Positions 49,280 through 63,136 of a DNA stretch of 64,000 nucleotides are shown one piece after another. The stretch comes from an uncultured Prolixibacteraceae bacterium (GTDB taxonomy: Bacteria; Bacteroidota; Bacteroidia; Bacteroidales; Prolixibacteraceae): positions 1 to 64,000 of the forward strand of contig CAJXZG010000018.1 in assembly GCA_913063265.1 (NCBI GenBank). Reading direction: 5' to 3'. Numbering within the stretch: position 1 is the stretch's first letter; each line of letters starts with the position of its first letter. Made by a program: the position numbers and the translations under genes. The notes beneath the pieces are model-generated. The model did no database searches and was not told the DNA's origin. It saw nothing but the letters and a program-made list of their open reading frames with translations.

Positions 49280-50275
49280 ATGAGCAATTTTAGATTTACG
49301 GTAGATAACAATTCAAGCGTTCTCAAATTTCAACAGCTGGTTGATGCCATAATTGATTCGATTAGCCGAGACCAACTTAAAGCAGGAGAAATGTTACCCT
49401 CCGTTAACCAAATAATGAACGAGTGCCAACTTTCCAGGGATACTGTTTTTAAAGCTTATGCAGAATTAAAAAAACGAGGTGTAGTCGAATCAGTGCCAAA
49501 TCGTGGATATTTTGTAGTTCAAAAGATTACCAAAGTTTTTCTTTTCCTTGACACGTTTAAAGCTTATAAGGAAGTATTGTACGGTTCATTTTTGAAAAAT
49601 CTGCCAAAGGATATTGGTGTTGATTTACATTTTCATCATTACAATATCGATGTATTTGAAAAAATTATCACTGACAGCGTAGGGAAATACAGCAAATATA
49701 TTATCATGAATTTTGACCATCCAAAAGTTTCAAAACTCATAAAAAATATTCCCTCTGAACAACTATTGATCATCGATTGGAAAATTAACGCAACAGAAAA
49801 TCAATCTTTCGTCTACCAGGATTTTGGTGAATCAGTGTATAAATGTTTTAAAAATAACCTGGATAGAATTTCAAAATATAAAGAATTAAAATTTTATTAC
49901 CCTGAATTTACATACCACCCCAAAAGTACAATCGAATACTTCCAAAAATTTTGTAACGATTTTGATATTAAATTCAGCGTAATCTATGAAGGAACAAAAT
50001 TTATTATTGAAAAGGGGAATCTGTATTTTCTTGTCAGCGACAGGACACTAGCTAATTTTCTTGATCAATGCCGGGATTTGGGATTTGAACCTGGTCGAGA
50101 GGTTGGTGTAATTTCATACAATGAAACTCCTATGAAAAAATATGTAAAAAATGGTATTACAGTAATTTCAACAGATTTTGAGCTGATGGGTAAAAAAGCA
50201 GCAGAATTTGTTACAACCGGTAAACATATACAGTTTCAGGTTCCTACTACATTAAAACTAAGAGCTTCATTATAA
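49280..50275 (+). CDS. GntR-family transcriptional regulator with LacI-type sensor domain, likely xylose regulator
   Basis: The 331-residue protein has an N-terminal GntR winged helix (about 16-80: PSVNQIMNECQLSRDTVFKAY, and the wing NRGYFVV). The C-terminal two-thirds (about 85-331) look like a periplasmic-binding/LacI effector domain (YKEVLYGSFLKNL, GVISYNETPMKKYVKNGITVIS). Bacteroidota use this architecture to control xylose and arabinose operons. It is upstream of xylB on the same strand, and AGAAC-type repeats occur before both genes; regulation of the xylose unit and of itself is inferred. Confidence 0.85.
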   Translation: MSNFRFTVDNNSSVLKFQQLVDAIIDSISRDQLKAGEMLPSVNQIMNECQLSRDTVFKAYAELKKRGVVESVPNRGYFVVQKITKVFLFLDTFKAYKEVLYGSFLKNLPKDIGVDLHFHHYNIDVFEKIITDSVGKYSKYIIMNFDHPKVSKLIKNIPSEQLLIIDWKINATENQSFVYQDFGESVYKCFKNNLDRISKYKELKFYYPEFTYHPKSTIEYFQKFCNDFDIKFSVIYEGTKFIIEKGNLYFLVSDRTLANFLDQCRDLGFEPGREVGVISYNETPMKKYVKNGITVISTDFELMGKKAAEFVTTGKHIQFQVPTTLKLRASL

Positions 50276-50346
50276 TAATGATTTTAAGCTGATTTTTCAT
50301 AATTCAATGATTATCAAATAAAGCTAATTACTCAATATTTAAAAAC

Positions 50347-50426
50347 ATGTTATAGAACATATTTATTCCGTTTGAAAGCTTATTTTTTGACCTTAATTTT
50401 GACAACATACCAGAACAGAACAGTTC
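50347..50426 (+). promoter_or_regulatory. xylB promoter with two AGAAC-type operators
   Basis: TTTG (50371-50374), exactly 19 bases, then TAATTTTG (50394-50401): an ideal promoter. A 14-base inverted repeat, ATGTT-ATAG-AACAT (50347-50360), containing AGAACA lies upstream of it. AGAACAGAACAGTTC (50412-50426) lies just downstream near the start of transcription. The latter shares tandem AGAAC units with the site before the GntR gene. Confidence 0.6.
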
Positions 50427-50460
50427 GTATTTTTAACAACAACATAAAACACTAAATATC

Positions 50461-51945
50461 ATGCACTTATTAGGATTCGACATTGGAAGTTCTTCTGTAA
50501 AAGTTTCGCTGGTTGAAGGTGAATCGGGCAATTGTATCGCCAGTTCATTTTATCCAAAACAGGAAATGACGATAACCGCCCATCAGGCAGGCTGGGCAGA
50601 GCAAGAGCCGGAATTATGGTGGAAAAATTTAAAGCTGGCTTTGGCCGAAGTATTAAATGAATCAAAGGTTTCACCGGAAGATATTGGTTCGATTGGTATT
50701 TCTTACCAAATGCATGGTTTAGTGATGGTGGATAAAAACCAGGAAGTAATCAGGCCTTCAATCATATGGTGCGACAGCCGTGCAGCAGTTATTGGGGATA
50801 AAGCATTTGACCAGATTGGTGGACAACGTTGTTTATCAAATCTGTTAAACTCTCCCGGAAATTTCACAGCTTCTAAACTTAAATGGGTTAAAGATAACGA
50901 GCCCGAACTTTACGATAAGGTATATAAGATTATGTTGCCGGGAGATTACATAGCAATGAAACTTTCAGGCAATATTCAAACCACAGTCAGTGGATTATCA
51001 GAAGGTATTATGTGGGATTTTAAAGAAAATTCTATTGCCAAACTGTTGTTTGAAAACTATGGGTTTTCACCCGATATTATTCCTGAAATTGTACCAACAT
51101 TTGCAGTTCAAAGTCAAATTTCTGAGGCGGCAGCAAAAGAACTTGGTTTATCTCCAAAAACAACAATTACTTACCGTGCCGGAGATCAACCCAACAATGC
51201 ACTTTCGCTTAATGTTTTAAATCCGGGAGAAATTGCAACCACTGCCGGGACTTCCGGAGTTGTTTATGGAGTAAGTGACGAAATTAAATATGATCCTCAT
51301 TCAAGAGTGAACACCTTTGCCCATGTAAATTATACATCAGAAAATCCACGGTTAGGAGTCTTACTTTGCATCAACGGAACCGGTATTTTAAACGCATGGC
51401 TAAAACGTATGGTGGGTGAAAACTTATCATATGAAGAGATGAACAAACTTGCCTCAAATGTAACAATTGGTTCAGAGGGTCTTTCTATCCTTCCGTTTGG
51501 AAATGGTGCTGAGCGAGTGCTGAACAACAAAAATATTGGTTCAGTGCTAAGTGGTATTAATTTTAATATTCACCAAAAAGGACATTTATTACGTGCAGCA
51601 CAGGAAGGTATAGTTTTCTCTTTTAATTATGGAATGGAAATTATGAAAAACATTGGTATCAATCCATCTGTAATTCGTGCGGGTAAGGCAAATATGTTCC
51701 TTAGCCCAATTTTCAGAGATACTTTGGCAGGAATTTCAGGAGCTACAATAGAGTTATATAACACCGATGGTTCTGTAGGAGCGGCAAGAGGTGCGGGAAT
51801 TGGTTCAGGGTATTATAAATCATCAGCCGAAGCATTTACCAACCTGAAAAAACTCGATACAATTGAACCGGATATTTCAAATAAAGCAGAATATGCAGAG
51901 GCTTATGAAAACTGGAAAAACGGGCTTGAAAAAGCTATCAGATAA
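50461..51945 (+). CDS. xylB: Xylulokinase
   Basis: XylB phosphorylates D-xylulose to xylulose 5-phosphate for the pentose phosphate pathway. The 494-residue FGGY-family kinase begins LLGFDIGSSSVKVSLVE (phosphate loop), with SYQMHGLVMVD, WCDSRA, the catalytic-base Asp242 in YRAGDQPNNAL, TTAGTSGVVYG and RAGKANMFLSPIF. Length matches other xylulokinases. It is the first gene of a four-gene operon (xylB, Gfo/Idh/MocA, xylA, transporter) behind a strong promoter. Confidence 0.95.
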   Translation: MHLLGFDIGSSSVKVSLVEGESGNCIASSFYPKQEMTITAHQAGWAEQEPELWWKNLKLALAEVLNESKVSPEDIGSIGISYQMHGLVMVDKNQEVIRPSIIWCDSRAAVIGDKAFDQIGGQRCLSNLLNSPGNFTASKLKWVKDNEPELYDKVYKIMLPGDYIAMKLSGNIQTTVSGLSEGIMWDFKENSIAKLLFENYGFSPDIIPEIVPTFAVQSQISEAAAKELGLSPKTTITYRAGDQPNNALSLNVLNPGEIATTAGTSGVVYGVSDEIKYDPHSRVNTFAHVNYTSENPRLGVLLCINGTGILNAWLKRMVGENLSYEEMNKLASNVTIGSEGLSILPFGNGAERVLNNKNIGSVLSGINFNIHQKGHLLRAAQEGIVFSFNYGMEIMKNIGINPSVIRAGKANMFLSPIFRDTLAGISGATIELYNTDGSVGAARGAGIGSGYYKSSAEAFTNLKKLDTIEPDISNKAEYAEAYENWKNGLEKAIR

Positions 51946-51987
51946 AACCTATTGAATACCAACAATAACCTATTTAATTAATTAAAA

Positions 51988-53343
51988 ATGAAAAATACTA
52001 CAAGAAGATCATTTCTAAAAACAGCAGCTGCTACAGGCGTGGGAGCTATGATTATCCCGAATTTTATCAGTTGTGCACCAAACCAGAAATTGCGTTTTGC
52101 AATGATTGGGGTAGGTGGCCGCGGACATGCAAGCTGGAGCAATGTTCCCAAAGAGAGTTTGGTTGCCATGTGTGATGTAGATGAAAGAATGACCAAACAG
52201 GCACGGGAAGCAGTACCTGATGCAAAATGGTATAAGGATTTCAGAAAGATGTTTGATGAAATGGGTAAAGAAATTGATGCGGTAATGATATCAACTCCGG
52301 ATCATACTCATTTTCCGGCAGCCATTGCAGCAATGGAATTAGGGAAACATGTTTTTGTAGAAAAACCTTTGGCACATAATATCTGGCAACTGCAAACCTT
52401 AAAAAAAGCAGCAAAATATTATGGTGTAGTTTCTCAAATGGGTAACCAGGGGCATACCACAAACGGTATTCGTTTGGTAAAAGAATGGTACGAAGCCGGC
52501 GTTCTGGGAGAAGTAAAAGAAGTAATTGCCTGGCAGGGGCCGATCAATTTTGAGAAAGATCATTATTTCAAAAAACCGGAAAGCTTCCCGCCACCGGTAC
52601 ACGAAGTTCCTAATGGTTTAGACTGGGAACTCTGGCAGGGGCCGGTTCCTGAAAAACCATTTAACAATTTATATGCTCCCCGCACCTGGAGAGGATTTTA
52701 CGATTATGGAAACGGCAAATTGGGTGACTGGTGTTGTCATACTTTGGATGCACCCTTCTGGGCTCTCGATTTAGGTATGCCACACACTGTTTCGGCCGAA
52801 ATTAAAGACATGGTTCCCGATCACAGTTTTGTTGCTACAGAATCGGTAGTTACCTGGGAGTTTGGCGCAAGAGGCGATAAAGCTCCGGTTACAATGAAAT
52901 GGTACGAAGGGATGGAAAAACCTGCGGTCCGCCCTGAATGGGGAATTGATGAATTACCCGGTGGCGGAATGATTATGATTGGGGATAAAAAAACATTGAT
53001 AACAGGTGGACGCCCTAATAATCCAAGATTACTGGTTTCTAAAGAAGAAATGGAGGAATTTTTGAAAAATGCTCCTGAAAAAACTATTCCCCGTGTTGGA
53101 GAAGAAAAACCGGTTCAGGAATGGGTGGATGCCATAAAAAATGACACTCTTCCGGGATCAAATTTTGATTATGCTGCCAGCCTCATGGAAATGGCTCAAG
53201 TGGGTGTTTTAGCTCAAAGATTTGGAGGAACCATTAAATATGATTCCAAAAATATGAAGGCAATTGGAAGACCAGAACTTGATGATTATATCAAAGAACC
53301 TGTTCGAAAAGGATGGGAATACGGTGAAAATATTTGGAAATAA
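51988..53343 (+). CDS. Exported Gfo/Idh/MocA-family oxidoreductase within the xylose operon
   Basis: The 451-residue protein starts with a twin-arginine leader (TRRSFLKTAAATGVGAMIIP) ending near Cys29, so Tat export and possibly lipidation are predicted. The NAD(P)-binding Rossmann fold follows (RFAMIGVGGRGHASW), with the family EKP motif HVFVEKPLAHN and a C-terminal Gfo/Idh/MocA domain. Members oxidise or epimerise sugars and glycosides, often with tightly bound NAD(H). It sits 42 bp after xylB and 31 bp before xylA, so it is clearly co-transcribed; which pentose or glycoside it acts on is unknown. Confidence 0.88.
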   Translation: MKNTTRRSFLKTAAATGVGAMIIPNFISCAPNQKLRFAMIGVGGRGHASWSNVPKESLVAMCDVDERMTKQAREAVPDAKWYKDFRKMFDEMGKEIDAVMISTPDHTHFPAAIAAMELGKHVFVEKPLAHNIWQLQTLKKAAKYYGVVSQMGNQGHTTNGIRLVKEWYEAGVLGEVKEVIAWQGPINFEKDHYFKKPESFPPPVHEVPNGLDWELWQGPVPEKPFNNLYAPRTWRGFYDYGNGKLGDWCCHTLDAPFWALDLGMPHTVSAEIKDMVPDHSFVATESVVTWEFGARGDKAPVTMKWYEGMEKPAVRPEWGIDELPGGGMIMIGDKKTLITGGRPNNPRLLVSKEEMEEFLKNAPEKTIPRVGEEKPVQEWVDAIKNDTLPGSNFDYAASLMEMAQVGVLAQRFGGTIKYDSKNMKAIGRPELDDYIKEPVRKGWEYGENIWK

Positions 53344-53374
53344 AAAAAGATTATTAATTATTAAAATTTAAAAA

Positions 53375-54700
53375 ATGGAAGTATTAAAGGGTAACAAAGA
53401 GTATTTTAAGGGAATTGATCAGATTAAATATGAAGGTCCCGATTCAAAAAATCCACTGGCTTTTAAGTGGTACGACGAGAATAAAGTAGTTGCAGGAAAA
53501 ACTATGAAAGATCACCTGCGTTTTGCAGTAGCCTACTGGCATACATTCTGCGGAACCGGTGGCGACCCCTTTGGCCCGGGAACTCAGATTTTCCCATGGG
53601 ATGGTGCAACAGACGTTATGGATGCTGCAAAAGAAAGAATGGATGCCGCATTCGAATTCATTACAAAAATGAATATTCCTTACTACTGTTTTCATGATAC
53701 CGACGTTGTTGGCGATGGTTCGGTTTTTGAAATTGAAAAACGTCTTGCAAAAATGGTGGAAATTGCCAAACAAAAACAAGATGCTTCAGGTGTAAAATTA
53801 TTATGGGGAACAGCTAATGTATTCTCTGATCCTCGCTATATGAACGGAGCTTCAACCAATCCTGACTTTAAGGTTCTGGCCAATGCTGCCACCCAGGTTA
53901 AAAATGCCATTGACGCAACTATCGAATTAGGCGGAACAGGATATGTTTTCTGGGGTGGCCGTGAAGGTTACATGAGTTTGCATAATACAGACACAAAACG
54001 CGAACTGGCTCACCTTGGACAATTCCTTCGCACTGCACGCGATTATGGTCGTAAACAAGGTTTCACAGGAACTTATTTTATCGAGCCAAAACCAATGGAG
54101 CCAACAAAACATCAGTACGATTTTGATGCGCAAACAGTTATTGGATTTTTAAGAGCCAACGGACTTGAAAATGATTTCAAATTGAATGTTGAAGTAAACC
54201 ATGCTACATTAGCAGGCCACACTTTTGCTCACGACTTACGCATGGCTGCCGATGCTGGTATGTTAGGATCGATCGACGCCAACAAGGGTGACTACCAAAA
54301 CGGATGGGATACTGACGAATTCCCAACAAGCATTTACGAAATTACAGAAGCAATGCTGGAGATTCTACCTACCGGCGGATTCACTCATGGCGGCATCAAT
54401 TTCGATGCAAAAACAAGAAGAAATTCTACAGATCTGGAGGATATTTTTATAGCACACATTGGTGGAATGGACGTATTTGCGCGTTCACTGGTAATTGCAG
54501 ATAAAATTTTATCAGACTCAGATTACCTGAAAAGGCGTAAAGATCGTTATGCCTCTTACGATTCAGGTAAAGGTGCTGAATTTGAAGCAGGAAAACTTTC
54601 GCTGGAAGATTTACGTGATATTGCTGCTGAAGTTGGAGAACCTGCACAAATTAGCGGAAAACAGGAATTAATTGAGCAATTAATAAACTGGCATATTTAG
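53375..54700 (+). CDS. xylA: Xylose isomerase
   Basis: XylA converts D-xylose to D-xylulose. The 441-residue protein is of the long (class II) type. Metal and substrate residues are visible in [31 protein letters not shown] (Glu237), [37 protein letters not shown] and [13 protein letters not shown]. The gene supplies the step before xylB in the same operon; the transporter gene begins six bases after its stop codon. Confidence 0.97.
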
Positions 54701-54706
54701 TAAGCA

Positions 54707-56086
54707 ATGAAGGAACGCAATACCTTTTACATTGCAACAATTACGCTGGTAGCAACACTTGGCGGACTGTTGTTTGGTTACGATACAGCAGTTATTTCAG
54801 GTGCTGACAAATCAATCCAGGCCTATTTAATTGATGGGCTTGGATTGAGTTCACTGGCTCATGGAGCAACAATTTCCAGTGCACTAATAGGATGTATTAT
54901 CGGCGGGAGTCTCTCCGGATTGTTTTCAACCAATTTTGGAAGAAAAAAAACTTTGTTTATTGCCGCCATATTATTTTTCTTTTCGGCATTGGGTTCAGGT
55001 TATCCTGAATTTCTTTTATTTGAAAAAGGAGAACCTACCATGGGTTTATTATACATGTTCAATTTTTACCGAATAATTGGAGGAATTGGAGTTGGGCTGG
55101 CATCAGCAGTTAGCCCGATGTATATAGGGGAGATTGCTCCGGCCGATATTCGTGGGCGTTTGGTTTCTGTGAACCAGTTTGCCATAATTTTTGGAATGTT
55201 GGTGGTATACTTTGTAAACTGGGGAATTGCCAACGGCCAGAGCCTTGAATGGATAAATACAGTTGGATGGAGACGAATGTTTACTTCAGAAGCAATTCCT
55301 GCCGGATTGTTTGCCTTCCTGTTATTTTTTGTTCCGGAAACACCGCGTTATCTGGCTTTAAATAACCAAAACGACAAAGCGCTGTCAATTTTAACTAAGA
55401 TAAATGGAGTTGAAAGAGCCAAAGCCATCTTTAAGGACATTAAATCCAGTGTTGAACAATCTTCCGAGAATCTGTTTGCCTTTGGGAAAGTGGTGATTAT
55501 TATCGGAATTCTTCTTTCAGTATTTCAGCAGTTTGTTGGTATTAATGTAGCACTGTATTACGCCCCCCGTATTTTTGAAAGTATGGGTGCCGAAAAAGAT
55601 GCCTCTATGTTACAAACCGTGGTAATGGGATTGGTAAATGTAATATTTACAGTTGTTGCCATTGCTACTGTTGACAAATGGGGAAGAAAACCATTATTGA
55701 TGGTGGGTTCGATCGGTATGGCAATTGGTATGATTGCCATTGGAGCTCTATCATTTTTGAAAATCATCGGAATTGGTACGCTTGTATTTATTATCATTTA
55801 CACCGCATCGTTTATGATGTCGTGGGGACCAATTTGCTGGGTGTTAATTTCAGAGTTGTTTCCAAATAAAATTCGTGGCAAAGCCATAGCCATTGCTGTT
55901 GCAGCACAATGGGCAGCCAACTATTTTATTTCATCAACCTATCCGGCAATGATGGAATTTAGCGGTGGGTTAACCTATTGGTTTTATGGATCGATGAGTA
56001 TCCTCTCTTTCTTTTTTGTCTGGAAAATGGTTCCCGAAACCAAGGGAAAAACACTGGAAGAAGTTGAACATTTATGGAAAAAATAG
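54707..56086 (+). CDS. xylE: D-xylose/H+ symporter, sugar porter family of the MFS
   Basis: The 459-residue protein has 12 predicted membrane helices and the sugar-porter signatures: LLFGYDTAVISGA in helix 1, NFGRKKTLF after helix 2, RIIGGIGVGLASAVSPMYIGE, the PETPRYL motif after helix 6, FQQFVGINVALYYAP in helix 7, and VPETKGKTLEEVE at the end. These match the XylE/galactose-proton symporter group. Co-operonic with xylA and xylB, so xylose is the expected substrate. Confidence 0.92.
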   Translation: MKERNTFYIATITLVATLGGLLFGYDTAVISGADKSIQAYLIDGLGLSSLAHGATISSALIGCIIGGSLSGLFSTNFGRKKTLFIAAILFFFSALGSGYPEFLLFEKGEPTMGLLYMFNFYRIIGGIGVGLASAVSPMYIGEIAPADIRGRLVSVNQFAIIFGMLVVYFVNWGIANGQSLEWINTVGWRRMFTSEAIPAGLFAFLLFFVPETPRYLALNNQNDKALSILTKINGVERAKAIFKDIKSSVEQSSENLFAFGKVVIIIGILLSVFQQFVGINVALYYAPRIFESMGAEKDASMLQTVVMGLVNVIFTVVAIATVDKWGRKPLLMVGSIGMAIGMIAIGALSFLKIIGIGTLVFIIIYTASFMMSWGPICWVLISELFPNKIRGKAIAIAVAAQWAANYFISSTYPAMMEFSGGLTYWFYGSMSILSFFFVWKMVPETKGKTLEEVEHLWKK

Positions 56087-56247: not shown

Positions 56248-57132
56248 ATGATATATCCAATAAAAATAGATTTGATTCCTTTGTTGAAAAACCTGATTGC
56301 GGCACTTCAACCGTATGCCAGGGCAAACAACATTAAACTACAACTGTCATGTTCTTTTAAACAAGTTGAAATTTATCATCATCCCGAAATGATAATTCCT
56401 GATCTGACCAGGTTGGTTTGCCGGATAGTTACATTTACTCCACAGGATTTCAACGTAGAACTGAATTTACCTAATCAGGATATCAACAAACAAGAATATC
56501 TTTTGATTGGCATAAAAAACACAGGTGCCAGTTTGTTAGCCTTAAAGAATCACATTCTGAATGAAATAAAACTCAATAGCAAATTACAGGAAACAGGCAA
56601 GAATGGAACCCAATTCCTAATTCATATCCCTGTCGTCAGTTATCAAGGTTCTGGCGAAGATGACTTAACTCATATGTCAGAATCAAAAAGTGCTGTCTTC
56701 CATTCACCGTTCTATGCAAGTTTAATGGGACATTTAAAAAGTCATTTTAGCAGCATTCGAAACCTTGAAAAGACCGCTGATGCCATGAGTCAACGGGATG
56801 GCATTTTTCTAAAAAAAGTAAATGCCGTTATTATCGCCCATCTCGACATTGAAGGTTTCGATACCGTAAAATTAGGTAGAGCCCTGGCGTTAAGCCGTAC
56901 ACAGCTCTACCGACAATTAAAACCATTAATCGGCTTCTCACCGGCTCATTATATTCGCTACGTGCGGTTAAATAAAGCAAAAGAATTTCTGAACAACGAA
57001 GATCTGACCGTAAGTGAAGTTGCATATAAAACAGGTTTTGCAAGTCCCAGTCATTTTACCCGTGCATTCCGGGAACAATTTGGATTTAATCCTTCAGAGT
57101 TAAGGCAACTTAAAAGCAAATCAAACGTATAA
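56248..57132 (+). CDS. AraC-family regulator with a degenerate histidine-kinase ATPase N-terminal domain
   Basis: The C-terminal 100 residues (about 190-290) are a standard AraC DNA-binding domain (RALALSRTQLYRQLKPLIGF, then VSEVAYKTGFASPSHFTRAFREQFG). The N-terminal 130 residues resemble a HATPase_c fold: FTPQDFNVELNL, YLLIGIKNTGASLL where kinases have DTGxGI, and KNGTQFLIHIP where they have GTxFxxxLP. The N-box asparagine and the ATP-binding aspartate are missing, and no receiver or sensor domain is present. It looks like a decayed descendant of a hybrid two-component regulator. It probably governs the SnoaL-like genes that follow at 39 bp. Confidence 0.8.
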   Translation: MIYPIKIDLIPLLKNLIAALQPYARANNIKLQLSCSFKQVEIYHHPEMIIPDLTRLVCRIVTFTPQDFNVELNLPNQDINKQEYLLIGIKNTGASLLALKNHILNEIKLNSKLQETGKNGTQFLIHIPVVSYQGSGEDDLTHMSESKSAVFHSPFYASLMGHLKSHFSSIRNLEKTADAMSQRDGIFLKKVNAVIIAHLDIEGFDTVKLGRALALSRTQLYRQLKPLIGFSPAHYIRYVRLNKAKEFLNNEDLTVSEVAYKTGFASPSHFTRAFREQFGFNPSELRQLKSKSNV

Positions 57133-57171: not shown

Positions 57172-57597
57172 ATGAACACAGCTGAAAAGAACAAACATTT
57201 TATGAAAAAATATTACAGGGAAGTACTGTATGCAAAAAATCACCGACCAGAATCGTTAGTAGAAACTTTTTATCGGTTTATAAAAGACCAAAAACTGGTC
57301 GATCATATTCTGACTTTAAATAAATCTTTTCCAGGATACGATGTAATTGTAAAGGAAATGATTGCCGAAGGTGACCGTGTTTTTGTAAATGTTGATTTTG
57401 TTGGAACTCACAAAGGCATTATTGAAGGTATTCCAGCAACAGCAAAAGAAGTACAGGTTCCTTTTGGACTTTGTTACACAATAAGAGAAGAAAAAATTGT
57501 TGATTTCTGGGCCATCGCCAACGAAATGGAATTCTTTGAACAATTAGGATTAACACGAGAACAGGTTGATGTTCAAAAAGCTTCTGAATCGGAATAA
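57172..57597 (+). CDS. SnoaL-like (ester cyclase/polyketide cyclase fold) protein, copy 1
   Basis: The 141-residue cytosolic protein has the SnoaL-like cone fold: an N-terminal helix (NKHFMKKYYREVLY), VKEMIAEGDRVFVNVDFVGTHKG, the loop GIPATAKEVQVP, and IVDFWAIANEMEFFEQLG at the end. The pattern GxHxG...GIPxT...W is that of ester cyclase homologues, most of which have no demonstrated activity. It is a paralogue of the gene at 57946 and is 39 bp downstream of the AraC gene. Confidence 0.85.
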   Translation: MNTAEKNKHFMKKYYREVLYAKNHRPESLVETFYRFIKDQKLVDHILTLNKSFPGYDVIVKEMIAEGDRVFVNVDFVGTHKGIIEGIPATAKEVQVPFGLCYTIREEKIVDFWAIANEMEFFEQLGLTREQVDVQKASESE

Positions 57598-57945
57598 AGC
57601 AGATTTAGTCGACAACTATCAAAACAATCATTTCCCCATAACTCAAATACCCATATTTATCATTTTATAAAATTTTTAAAAAAGTTAGTCTCTCCACTTC
57701 TCGACATGTACAGATCAGAAAAGATGTATGAAAATTGAAAACTAATTGATCAATCTTATACAATCCACTCACACATTTCAATCTCATTCAATCCACACAA
57801 TTACTTCAACCTGAAATCAGTTGATTTTTTGCTGAACGTGCACAAGCTTTATTATTAGAATGCCAATGTAACAAACAGTCAAGTATCTGGAACAAATGGG
57901 CTAACTCCTGCATTTAAATTGACTTTAACTTTGATTAAAAATCAA
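57598..57945. other. 348-bp intergenic region between the two SnoaL-like genes
   Basis: AT-rich DNA with runs of CA-rich sequence (about 57750-57810) but no recognisable ORF, hairpin with T tract, or TAnnTTTG box of good quality. The upstream TTG at 57919 for the next gene is rejected in favour of ATG 57946. Confidence 0.45.
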
Positions 57946-58356
57946 ATGATGACCAAAAGTGAAAAAAATCGTCAGTTTATCCTTGAGTTTTACAAAGCAA
58001 TTAACGGAAATAAAAAAACAAGGACTTCCCTGGCTCTTTTTATTTCTGACCAAAAACTTACCACTCACTTGTTATTTCTTGAACAACTGTTCCCAAAATT
58101 CAGACTTATACCTGAAGAAATCACCGCAGAACAAGACCGCGTAATTGTGAGGGCTGAATTGACAGGAAAACATACTGGTGAGTTGGAAGGAATTCCACCA
58201 ACTCAAAAGAACATAAATACTGCTTTTGCTATTGGTTATCGAATAGAAAATAATAAGATAATTGATCATTGGTTTATTACCGACCAAATAGAACTGATAA
58301 AACAACTGGGTTTGGCCACCTTGTTGGATGAAATGTTAAAAAGCAATCCGGATTAA
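57946..58356 (+). CDS. SnoaL-like protein, copy 2
   Basis: I start at ATG 57946 (MMTKSEKNRQFILEFYKAI), which aligns with the start of copy 1; TTG 57919 would add nine unmatched residues. The 136-residue protein matches copy 1 along its length, with the same order of motifs: ITAEQDRVIVRAELTGKHTG, EGIPPTQK, IIDHWFITDQIELIKQLG. The pair arose by duplication. The tryptophan-containing pocket is kept, while His replaces Phe before Trp (DFW versus DHW). It is 30 bp before the lipoprotein gene and likely co-transcribed. Confidence 0.85.
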   Translation: MMTKSEKNRQFILEFYKAINGNKKTRTSLALFISDQKLTTHLLFLEQLFPKFRLIPEEITAEQDRVIVRAELTGKHTGELEGIPPTQKNINTAFAIGYRIENNKIIDHWFITDQIELIKQLGLATLLDEMLKSNPD

Positions 58357-59218: not shown

Positions 59219-60118
59219 TTAAAATTGGACGCTTCCTGCCATCTGCTGAGCGATTTCACTCAACCTTTTCAGTTCCATCGGATAAAGCTCAAGGGTGGCT
59301 CCCATGTCATAGGCCTGATTCTCAGTGTCCATAAGAATACCACCTGTTATTTGAAGACTTAGCATGGGATTGAAAGGACGGCTCAAAAGTCGCATAATAC
59401 GTAGTATCGATAAAGGCACATGATTCTTTTTTGCTGATCGCTGACCAGCTTTCTCAAAAAGCTCAGCAACCTGATTGAAAGTCAGGTTTTCTGGTCCACC
59501 TACCTCAATCACCTGGTTGTGAGCTTTGGTTTCTTTCAGCGCGATCATAGAAAATTTAGCCACATCTTCGGCGCTCACGAAGTTAATGGGATTGTTTCCA
59601 CGGCCAAAGATAGTTGTTTTACCTGTCTTGAGAATTGGTTCACCAACCATAACTGCCCAAAATTCCATGAATGCCGCTGCACGTAAAATAGTGTAACTCA
59701 ATCCACTCATTTGTAGATATTTTTCGGTAGCGTACTTTATACGGAAGAACTCAAGCTTGCTGGTTGATGAAGCACCTAAAATGGAGATATAAACAAAATG
59801 TTGTACCCCGGCGCCTTTAGCGGCATCAATTAGATTGCGGTTGCCAACATCGTCAACAGTGCGGGGGTTGTTATTAGCCTGCCCGGGAGTAAATCCATGC
59901 GCTGCTGCCAACACCTTTTCAATACCTTGACAGGCACGCGCCACAGAGTCCAAATCGCGTAAATCACCCTGCACAACTTCTGCACCCAATTCTTTCAAAT
60001 ATACAGCTTCCGTTTTCGATGGCGTACGGGTCATAGCACGCACCTTTTCCCCCTGTGCAAAAAGTAGAGGAATAAGATACATCCCTACCCTACTGGTAGA
60101 TCCAACAACAAGTATCAT
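59219..60118 (-). CDS. NmrA-like/atypical SDR NAD(P)-binding protein
   Basis: The 299-residue protein has a Rossmann fold starting MILVVGSTSRVGMYLIPLL (glycine motif of the NmrA/atypical SDR group), with VVQGDLRDLDSVARAC, FVYISILGAS and the C-terminal FNQVAELFEKAG. Such proteins act as NAD(P)H-dependent reductases or redox sensors. Its start overlaps the end of sodB by four bases (ATGA type), so the two form an operon with sodB first. GC content looks higher than the neighbours (about 46% in a sampled 120 bp), hinting at transfer. Confidence 0.85.
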   Translation of the reverse strand: MILVVGSTSRVGMYLIPLLFAQGEKVRAMTRTPSKTEAVYLKELGAEVVQGDLRDLDSVARACQGIEKVLAAAHGFTPGQANNNPRTVDDVGNRNLIDAAKGAGVQHFVYISILGASSTSKLEFFRIKYATEKYLQMSGLSYTILRAAAFMEFWAVMVGEPILKTGKTTIFGRGNNPINFVSAEDVAKFSMIALKETKAHNQVIEVGGPENLTFNQVAELFEKAGQRSAKKNHVPLSILRIMRLLSRPFNPMLSLQITGGILMDTENQAYDMGATLELYPMELKRLSEIAQQMAGSVQF

Positions 60119-60705
60119 AATTCGTTATCTCTAAATCTCTCTGAAATTACCTTCCAATCGACTATTTTCCAAAAATCTGCAATATAAGCCGGACGTAAAT
60201 TTTTCTTGTCGATGTAATACGCATGCTCCCACACATCGCAGGTTAGAACAGGAGTCATCCCATCGCGTAATGGATTTCCCGCATTACTGGTTTGAACTAT
60301 CTCCAGTTCTCCATCAACATTTTTGACCAACCAGGCCCAACCTGAGCCAAATAATGTAGCAGCTGCCTTAGTAAAATCTTCCTTAAACTGTTCCACTGAA
60401 CCAAATTTAGCTTCAATTGCTGCTTTTAATTCATCTTTAGGTTCATCACATCCATCAGCACTAAACTGCATAAAATAAAAAGTGTGATTCCAAACCTGAG
60501 CTCCGTTGTTAAAAATTCCACCATCAGCCATTTTTACAATCTCCTCTAATGAAGATTTTTCAGATGCAGTTCCCTGTACGAGATTATTAAGATTATTTAC
60601 ATAAGCCTGATGATGTTTCCCATAATGAAAATCAAGTGTTTTTTCACTAATGTAAGGTTCCAATGCATTTTTTGCATAAGGTAATTCTGGTAATTCGAAT
60701 GTCAT
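60115..60705 (-). CDS. sodB: Superoxide dismutase, Fe-type
   Basis: This enzyme converts superoxide to oxygen and hydrogen peroxide. The 196-residue protein has ligands His27 and His74 and the C-terminal Asp/His pair in CDVWEHAYY. Metal-specificity residues are those of iron enzymes: Gln70 in NNGAQVWNHTFYF and Ala142 in TSNAGNPL. It has no signal peptide, so it acts in the cytoplasm. Translationally coupled to the NmrA-like gene downstream. A second, Mn-type enzyme is encoded at 62.5 kb. Confidence 0.95.
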   Translation of the reverse strand: MTFELPELPYAKNALEPYISEKTLDFHYGKHHQAYVNNLNNLVQGTASEKSSLEEIVKMADGGIFNNGAQVWNHTFYFMQFSADGCDEPKDELKAAIEAKFGSVEQFKEDFTKAAATLFGSGWAWLVKNVDGELEIVQTSNAGNPLRDGMTPVLTCDVWEHAYYIDKKNLRPAYIADFWKIVDWKVISERFRDNEL

Positions 60706-62536: not shown

Positions 62537-63136
62537 CTAACCTTTAAACCGCCTGGCGACTTCATCCCAGTTGATGAGATTCCAGAATGCATTCACATAA
62601 TCCGGACGTCTGTTTTGATAATTCAGGTAATATGCATGTTCCCATACATCTATCCCCAGAACAGGGGTACCCTGAACTTCCGCCACATCCATCAATGGAT
62701 TATCCTGATTGGGCGTTGATGAAACCGCCAGCTTATCCTTTTGAAGAACCAACCATGCCCAACCAGATCCAAAGCGCGTTACCGCAGCTTTGACAAAGGC
62801 CTCTTGAAAATTTTGTACTGAACCAAATGAATCATTGATTGCATCGAGCAAAACTCCTTCAGGATTTGGGGATCCTCCCGGAGCCATTATTTCCCAATAC
62901 AAATTGTGGTTATAAAAACCACCTCCATTGTTCCTGACTGCAGCCGACTGACCTGAAATTCCTGAAAGAATCGCTTCAATTGACTTTCCCTCCAAATCAG
63001 TTCCTGCAACTGCATTATTTAAATTATTAGTGTAACCTGCGTGGTGTTTCCCATGATGTAATTCCATTGTTCTTGCATCAATAGCAGGTTCCAGTGCTGT
63101 ATAATCGTATCCTAGTTTTGGTAATTCAAATGCCAT
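62537..63136 (-). CDS. sodA: Superoxide dismutase, Mn-type
   Basis: The 199-residue protein has ligands His27 and His77 and the Asp/His pair in [11 protein letters not shown]. At the two sites that set metal use it has Gly73 in [13 protein letters not shown] and Gln144 in TPNQDNPL, the pattern of manganese enzymes and the reverse of the Fe-type copy at 60.1 kb. No export signal. It is monocistronic with a strong predicted promoter and a terminator. Confidence 0.93.

Follow-up and report, generated by a model that had tools for sequence, protein, structure and literature searches.

The regulator gene of the window (the whole 64,000-nucleotide stretch of DNA that was analysed, from an uncultured Prolixibacteraceae bacterium) probably, if by no means certainly, encodes a one-component AraC-type regulator that descended from the hybrid two-component proteins (HTCS) of Bacteroidota, takes its input through a histidine-kinase catalytic (CA) domain without the ATP lid, and controls its own SnoaL operon. 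Sequence and prediction establish four elements of this reading: the fold of the protein, what was deleted, its common descent with HTCS and its pairing with a SnoaL-like gene. The features of the regulator and of its partner genes are listed in Table 1.

Table 1. Position of the regulator, its parts and the adjoining SnoaL-like genes in the window.
Feature	Coordinates	Strand	Evidence
Whole regulator, 294 aa	56248..57132	+	ORF; 27 full-length relatives in named records
Lid-less HATPase_c/GHKL domain (predicted), residues 1-132	56248..56643	+	AF2, Foldseek, VIA-align, hhalign
Degenerate N-box, residues 55-65, RLVCRIVTFTP (NLLSNAIKFTP in HTCS L042)	56410..56442	+	Residue counts, 28 members vs 35 HTCS
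G1 strand (I-K-N91-T-G) fused to G2 helix, residues 89-104	56512..56559	+	hhalign gap; HTCS gap lengths
Last HATPase strand, GTQFLIHIP, residues 120-128	56605..56631	+	Gly120 24/28, Thr121 26/28, Pro128 24/28
Variable linker, residues 133-153	56644..56706	+	pLDDT <50 at 133-152; dN/dS
Helices, residues 154-182; from ~158 aligned with the HTCS receiver-HTH stretch	56707..56793	+	Full-length profile
AraC-type DNA-binding domain, residues 183-289	56794..57114	+	Pfam HTH_18; HTH tree
First SnoaL-like gene, 40 bases after the regulator	57172..57597	+	Pfam SnoaL E 8.4e-16; profile E 1.5e-50 (gene itself in profile)
Second SnoaL-like gene	57919..58356	+	Pfam SnoaL E 2.7e-16; profile E 7.9e-56 (gene itself in profile)

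The regulator family and its distribution

The regulator gene has a stop-free translation. A single scan of a named genome collection, based on one degenerate peptide pattern and therefore missing members that lack the pattern, found 27 full-length relatives, all in Bacteroidota. Their hosts are Prolixibacteraceae and other Bacteroidales, Flavobacteriaceae (Maribacter, Aurantibacter), Ferruginibacter, Flavihumibacter and Saprospiraceae, including Maribacter halichondriae (L065) and Flavihumibacter solisilvae (L084), and the distribution of these relatives over Bacteroidota is patchy. They share 31-46% identity with the window protein and start at approximately the same position; family counts of 28 given below comprise the window protein and these 27 relatives. 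Since so many full-length relatives have the same N-terminus, a chance ORF or a frame error is ruled out. When residues 1-163 are used as a query against 396 related genomes, a full-length regulator is found in nine (the window's own genome counted, weakest E-value 3.0e-11), and from an E-value of about 5e-7 onwards the matches are HATPase regions of longer kinase-type ORFs.

According to Pfam, the only domain of the window protein above the cut-off is the AraC HTH (HTH_18, residues 210-287, E 2.2e-23), and the family is therefore easily overlooked in ordinary annotation. The window protein has no Pfam match to AraC_binding (cupin), to a receiver or to HisKA. As for the HATPase family, the N-terminal part gives only chance-level Pfam and NCBIfam matches among the matches listed, which are the best 25 of 52 (Pfam) and the best 25 of 66 (NCBIfam) for the regulator family, and the best 25 of 39 NCBIfam matches for the window protein. 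At one locus (L064), a fragment of approximately 100 aa with an AraC HTH lies within the 310 bases immediately before the regulator and is perhaps the remnant of a larger regulator gene.

Fold, deletions and descent of the regulator

The sequence-only reading had assigned the N-terminal 130 residues or so to a decayed HATPase_c domain, and structure prediction agrees. AF2 models the whole regulator with a mean pLDDT of 85 and residues 1-132 alone with a mean pLDDT of 89 and pTM of 0.82. The predicted model contains the alpha/beta sandwich of GHKL/HATPase_c proteins, and its secondary structure elements follow the order E-H-E-E-H-E-E-H-E-E, which we take to be the order expected of a HATPase core without the lid. 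The best VIA-align row belongs to the CA domain of the ThkA kinase (Z 15.6, rmsd 2.5, 127 residues), with DivL, RetS and AraC-type chains among the other rows. For the N-domain alone, Foldseek reports HK853 at an E-value of 4.2e-09, and the best 50 matches listed are histidine-kinase, DivL, phytochrome or kinase-complex entries. Residues 1-132 are thus predicted to have the HATPase_c/GHKL fold rather than an unrelated one.

Profile comparisons point in the same direction. The hhalign probability between the family (28 rows) and 39 HTCS HATPases is 99.7%, a figure that represents the near end of the similarity because these HATPases came from loci already matching the regulator family or its HTH. 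In whole genomes, the N-terminal profile matches the HATPase regions of HTCS-size ORFs with a best E-value of 1.4e-13. Against PDB sequences, a single-sequence search with the regulator returned nothing useful, and the family profile gave 11 matches, 9 of them histidine kinases, with E-values of 0.03-1.4 only. Fusion of the HTH with an unrelated N-terminal domain was considered as an origin and is ruled out by the predicted fold together with the profile match.

The alignment of the family with HTCS HATPases has one large gap, 30 residues long, between NTGAS and LLALK of the G1 and G2 boxes. It corresponds to a block of approximately 30 residues (the ATP lid and the F box) missing at about residues 93-96 of the regulator, and because the lid between the two boxes is gone, G1 runs straight into the G2 helix. 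Several HTCS match the family profile in two HMMER pieces that overlap at model positions ~88-96. Measured from such two-piece matches (35 HTCS passed the filters, 6 of them without a second piece), the gap is exactly 30 residues in 20 of 29 HTCS and 26-37 residues in the other nine.

The remaining deletions lie on both sides of this core. The distance from the end of the HATPase to the HTH is ~51 residues in the regulator family versus 171-195 residues in 28 of 29 HTCS and 274 in one. The full-length profile realigns with HTCS L042 and L020 from model position 152 (residue ~158), within the stretch between receiver and HTH; the receiver itself is thus absent, and the post-receiver stretch and the AraC HTH are kept. 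At the other end, the ORF begins where the first HATPase strand, and with it the CA domain, begins, so that the DHp/H-box and sensor regions are absent as well. Together with the lack of HisKA and receiver matches in Pfam, these lengths bear out the suggestion that the sensor, dimerisation and receiver parts had been lost.

Regarding catalytic residues, the two motifs singled out from the sequence, NTG (residues 91-93) and GTQFLIHIP, are present as described, and the claim that the ATP-binding Asn and Asp had been lost holds for the window protein. The G1 Asp position is Asn (Asn91) in all 28 family members, and the window protein has Arg at position 59, the N-box Asn position. The loss of Asn59, however, is not family-wide, since this residue persists in 13 of the 28 members, with Arg in nine including the window protein. 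Lys62 is found in none of the 28, and Leu96 in every one. Among 35 HTCS, Asn59 is present in all, Lys or Arg at position 62 in 34, and Asp45 in 33; the G1 Asp is found in 33 of 39 aligned HTCS stretches, a count into which G2 stretches are mixed. A divergent relative (L090) has Glu at position 91 according to a hand alignment, so Asn91 is not universal. With Arg59, Asn91 and a deleted lid in place of the N-box Asn, the G1 Asp and the lid/G2 motif, kinase activity of the regulator appears very unlikely.

The base side of the former pocket is better conserved. Positions 91, 93, 120 and 121 have a conservation of 0.742 versus 0.502 for random N-domain positions (p 0.0007), and the N-box positions 55, 59, 62 and 63 have 0.552, no excess over random positions (p 0.27), both sets having been picked after the conservation table was inspected. 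The conserved base-side residues may merely hold the fold together. A thiol switch through Cys58, which appeared invariant in 9 sequences, was also considered; the idea was dropped because the residue is not invariant in the 28 sequences (19 Cys, 8 Ser and 1 Thr).

Selection was estimated by counting codon changes in nine pairs. The N-domain gives dN/dS values of 0.08, 0.10, 0.10, 0.11 and 0.26 for the five pairs that allowed the calculation (three of these with dS >1), and the HTH gives 0.01-0.09 in seven pairs. Of the five pairs that yielded a value for the linker and for another region, four have their highest value in the linker. These ratios indicate that the N-domain is under purifying selection.

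Phylogeny places the regulators among HTCS. The midpoint-rooted HTH tree (64 rows, 107 columns) unites the family and L090 in one clade with support 98/81, and seven HTCS stand beside it on a joint branch (90/84), six of them short ORFs of 720-756 aa. In the HATPase tree, the family lies on one side of a branch (92/90) recovered in 90% of 200 bootstrap trees; the sister group is not separated in this tree, and the bootstrap had not settled. Descent of the regulator family from HTCS is therefore supported by the profile matches, the HTH clade and the co-linear order of the surviving parts, in line with the derivation from a hybrid two-component protein proposed at the outset. As a separate observation, proteins of ~375-380 aa at L126 (846-1982) and L127 (reverse strand, from base 1025 of the reverse complement), from two Bacteroidota genomes, join a cyclase-like N-terminal part (assigned by eye) to an HTCS-type AraC HTH, and next to each is a second copy truncated where the stretch ends. 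They are perhaps another one-component use of the HTCS-type HTH.

The SnoaL-like partner and other neighbouring genes

A SnoaL-like gene lies downstream of the regulator on the same strand in all 28 loci, at a distance of 32-207 bases, measured to where the profile match begins; at L073 the contig ends inside this gene. The window has two SnoaL copies, the second of which, judging from its relatives, likely starts at the in-frame ATG 57949. Among solved structures, the first SnoaL-like protein is closest to SnoL and other proteins of polyketide or ester cyclase type. No SnoaL-like gene was found in a control set of 78 loci (median 3.3 kb) that surround HTCS, kinase or AraC hits, a comparison limited by short flanks: an AraC-HTH ORF is present in 69 of them, and the sequence after it extends for at least 400 bases in 57 and at least 587 in 36.

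Genome searches with the partner as query lead back to the regulator. SnoaL of the partner type occurs in 9 of 298 related genomes (E ≤ 1e-12), which are the same nine genomes that carry the regulator. It also occurs in 4 of 355 genomes of the class, with two strong matches (the window's genome and G593), both in regulator carriers, and two weak and partial ones (2.8e-14 and 6.2e-14). All 12 loci with strong matches (10 genomes) carry the regulator, and three weak matches, one of them a second match in G194, have no regulator within the stretch examined. The pairing therefore points to a two-gene control module that would be undescribed. A shared-word search of the 170 bases upstream for a common operator gave nothing convincing.

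A third gene of ~115-200 aa follows SnoaL in seven of the 28 loci (L065, L066, L067, L069, L070, L072 and L074); it is lipoprotein-like by eye in several copies and distantly SnoaL-like by profile in two. Further downstream, the window contains a gene for an NmrA-like NAD(P)-binding protein (59219-60118, by eye), with relatives in the vicinity of the regulator at 5 of the 28 loci, counting the window, and two Fe/Mn superoxide dismutase-like genes (60115-60705 and 62537-63136, by eye) ~3 kb apart.

Directly upstream of the regulator, on the same strand, positions 49280-56086 hold an apparent xylose catabolic cluster, consisting of genes for a GntR-type regulator, a xylulokinase-like protein, an oxidoreductase, a xylose isomerase-like protein (all four named by eye) and a sugar transporter. 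Among these genes, the oxidoreductase alone has relatives close to the regulator, at 5 of the 28 loci if the window is counted. A link between the regulator and xylose was rejected because the cluster is not kept in the other loci.

Proposed mechanism, rival readings and known systems

In the proposed course of events, deletions would have removed the sensor, DHp (phospho-histidine) part, ATP lid and receiver of an HTCS ancestor. The core of the catalytic domain would have been retained as the N-terminal domain, and the post-receiver stretch with the AraC HTH as the output. The resulting protein presumably cannot phosphorylate and would control the regulator-SnoaL operon, with the remnant CA domain occupying the usual position of the ligand-binding domain in AraC-type proteins and gating DNA binding. 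The architecture appears to fit signal input and DNA output combined in one protein without phosphotransfer. The signal would most likely be a small molecule connected with the SnoaL-like protein and binding the now-open pocket; the earlier suggestion that the dead pocket senses a ligand may hold in this form. A more specific version is tentative and on present evidence doubtful: a single clean removal of the lid would have turned the CA domain into a ligand sensor that drives transcription without phosphorylation, the base-recognising half of its ATP site (Asn91 and Thr121) would hold a purine-like or other flat ligand made or removed by its own SnoaL-like enzyme, and the two genes would form an obligate module scattered over Bacteroidota.

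The remnant CA domain could instead serve as a protein-docking sensor whose partner is a response regulator, a kinase or the SnoaL-like protein, as phosphorylated DivK is for DivL. We consider this unlikely, although DivL is an example of repurposed kinase catalytic domains in the available part of PMC4211667, structure comparison retrieves both DivL and RetS, and the constant SnoaL pairing would suit a protein partner. DivL, however, has DHp as well as CA according to the same part of that source, and DHp is absent from the regulator; moreover, residues on the base side of the pocket rank among the N-domain positions with the highest conservation. Families were grouped if present in at least four of the 28 loci, and none of those is a kinase or response-regulator family. 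At two of the 28 loci (L063 and L069), HTCS-size ORFs of the same HTH cluster are present within ~6.5 kb, and docking is conceivable there because these large ORFs lie close to the regulator.

Similarly improbable, and placed just below docking, is the view that the N-domain serves only as a scaffold for dimerisation or folding, so that the regulator would be constitutive or governed by its own level. The loss of catalytic residues agrees with it, as does the faster evolution of the N-domain compared with the HTH (dN/dS 0.08-0.26 in five pairs versus 0.01-0.09 in seven). Even so, the N-domain values are well below 1, and the G1 and GT positions vary little or not at all among the 28 members. 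That large HTCS parts are missing might also be expected of a pseudogene fragment decaying in this one genome. This explanation is extremely improbable given purifying selection and the existence of 27 named-record relatives that agree in architecture, start region and neighbour; on the same grounds, a pseudogene or frame-error reading of the regulator is ruled out.

The one-component regulator with a lid-less CA domain can be compared with several known systems. Like it, the HTCS of Bacteroidota have a HATPase core followed by an AraC HTH, and both of these parts, as well as the receiver-HTH stretch, are homologous; unlike it, they possess a sensor, DHp, ATP lid and receiver, in ORFs of ~700-1450 aa versus 294 aa. 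In one-component regulators of the AraC/XylS type, the sensor domain usually precedes the HTH, and the regulator likewise has its AraC HTH after a domain in the sensor position. Their N-terminal domain, however, is a cupin (AraC_binding), whereas that of the regulator is a kinase CA remnant with a predicted GHKL fold. AlbA/Schlafen-type regulators also have a GHKL-like domain together with an HTH, but their domains are different ones and presumably have a separate origin.

One-component regulators are commonly regarded as the ancestors of two-component systems. The regulator is a traceable case of a change from two components to one, with the deletions mapped. It also shows selection preserving a kinase catalytic core that has neither lid nor catalysis nor a phosphotransfer partner, which makes the remaining abilities of such a core testable, and its tight pairing with one SnoaL type offers a concrete target gene and a candidate chemistry. 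The kinds of components are known, and their combination and the constant SnoaL pair appear to be new: judged by titles and abstract openings, the open-access literature searched does not describe such a protein.

In the available part of PMC9491836, a kinase became a pseudokinase in laboratory evolution and still acted with a partner kinase. DivL-type histidine pseudokinases resemble the regulator in that the kinase fold has outlasted catalysis (PMC4211667, in the part available). According to that part, however, DivL keeps DHp and the ATP lid and is wired to a phosphorelay, whereas the regulator has a DNA-binding domain and no DHp.
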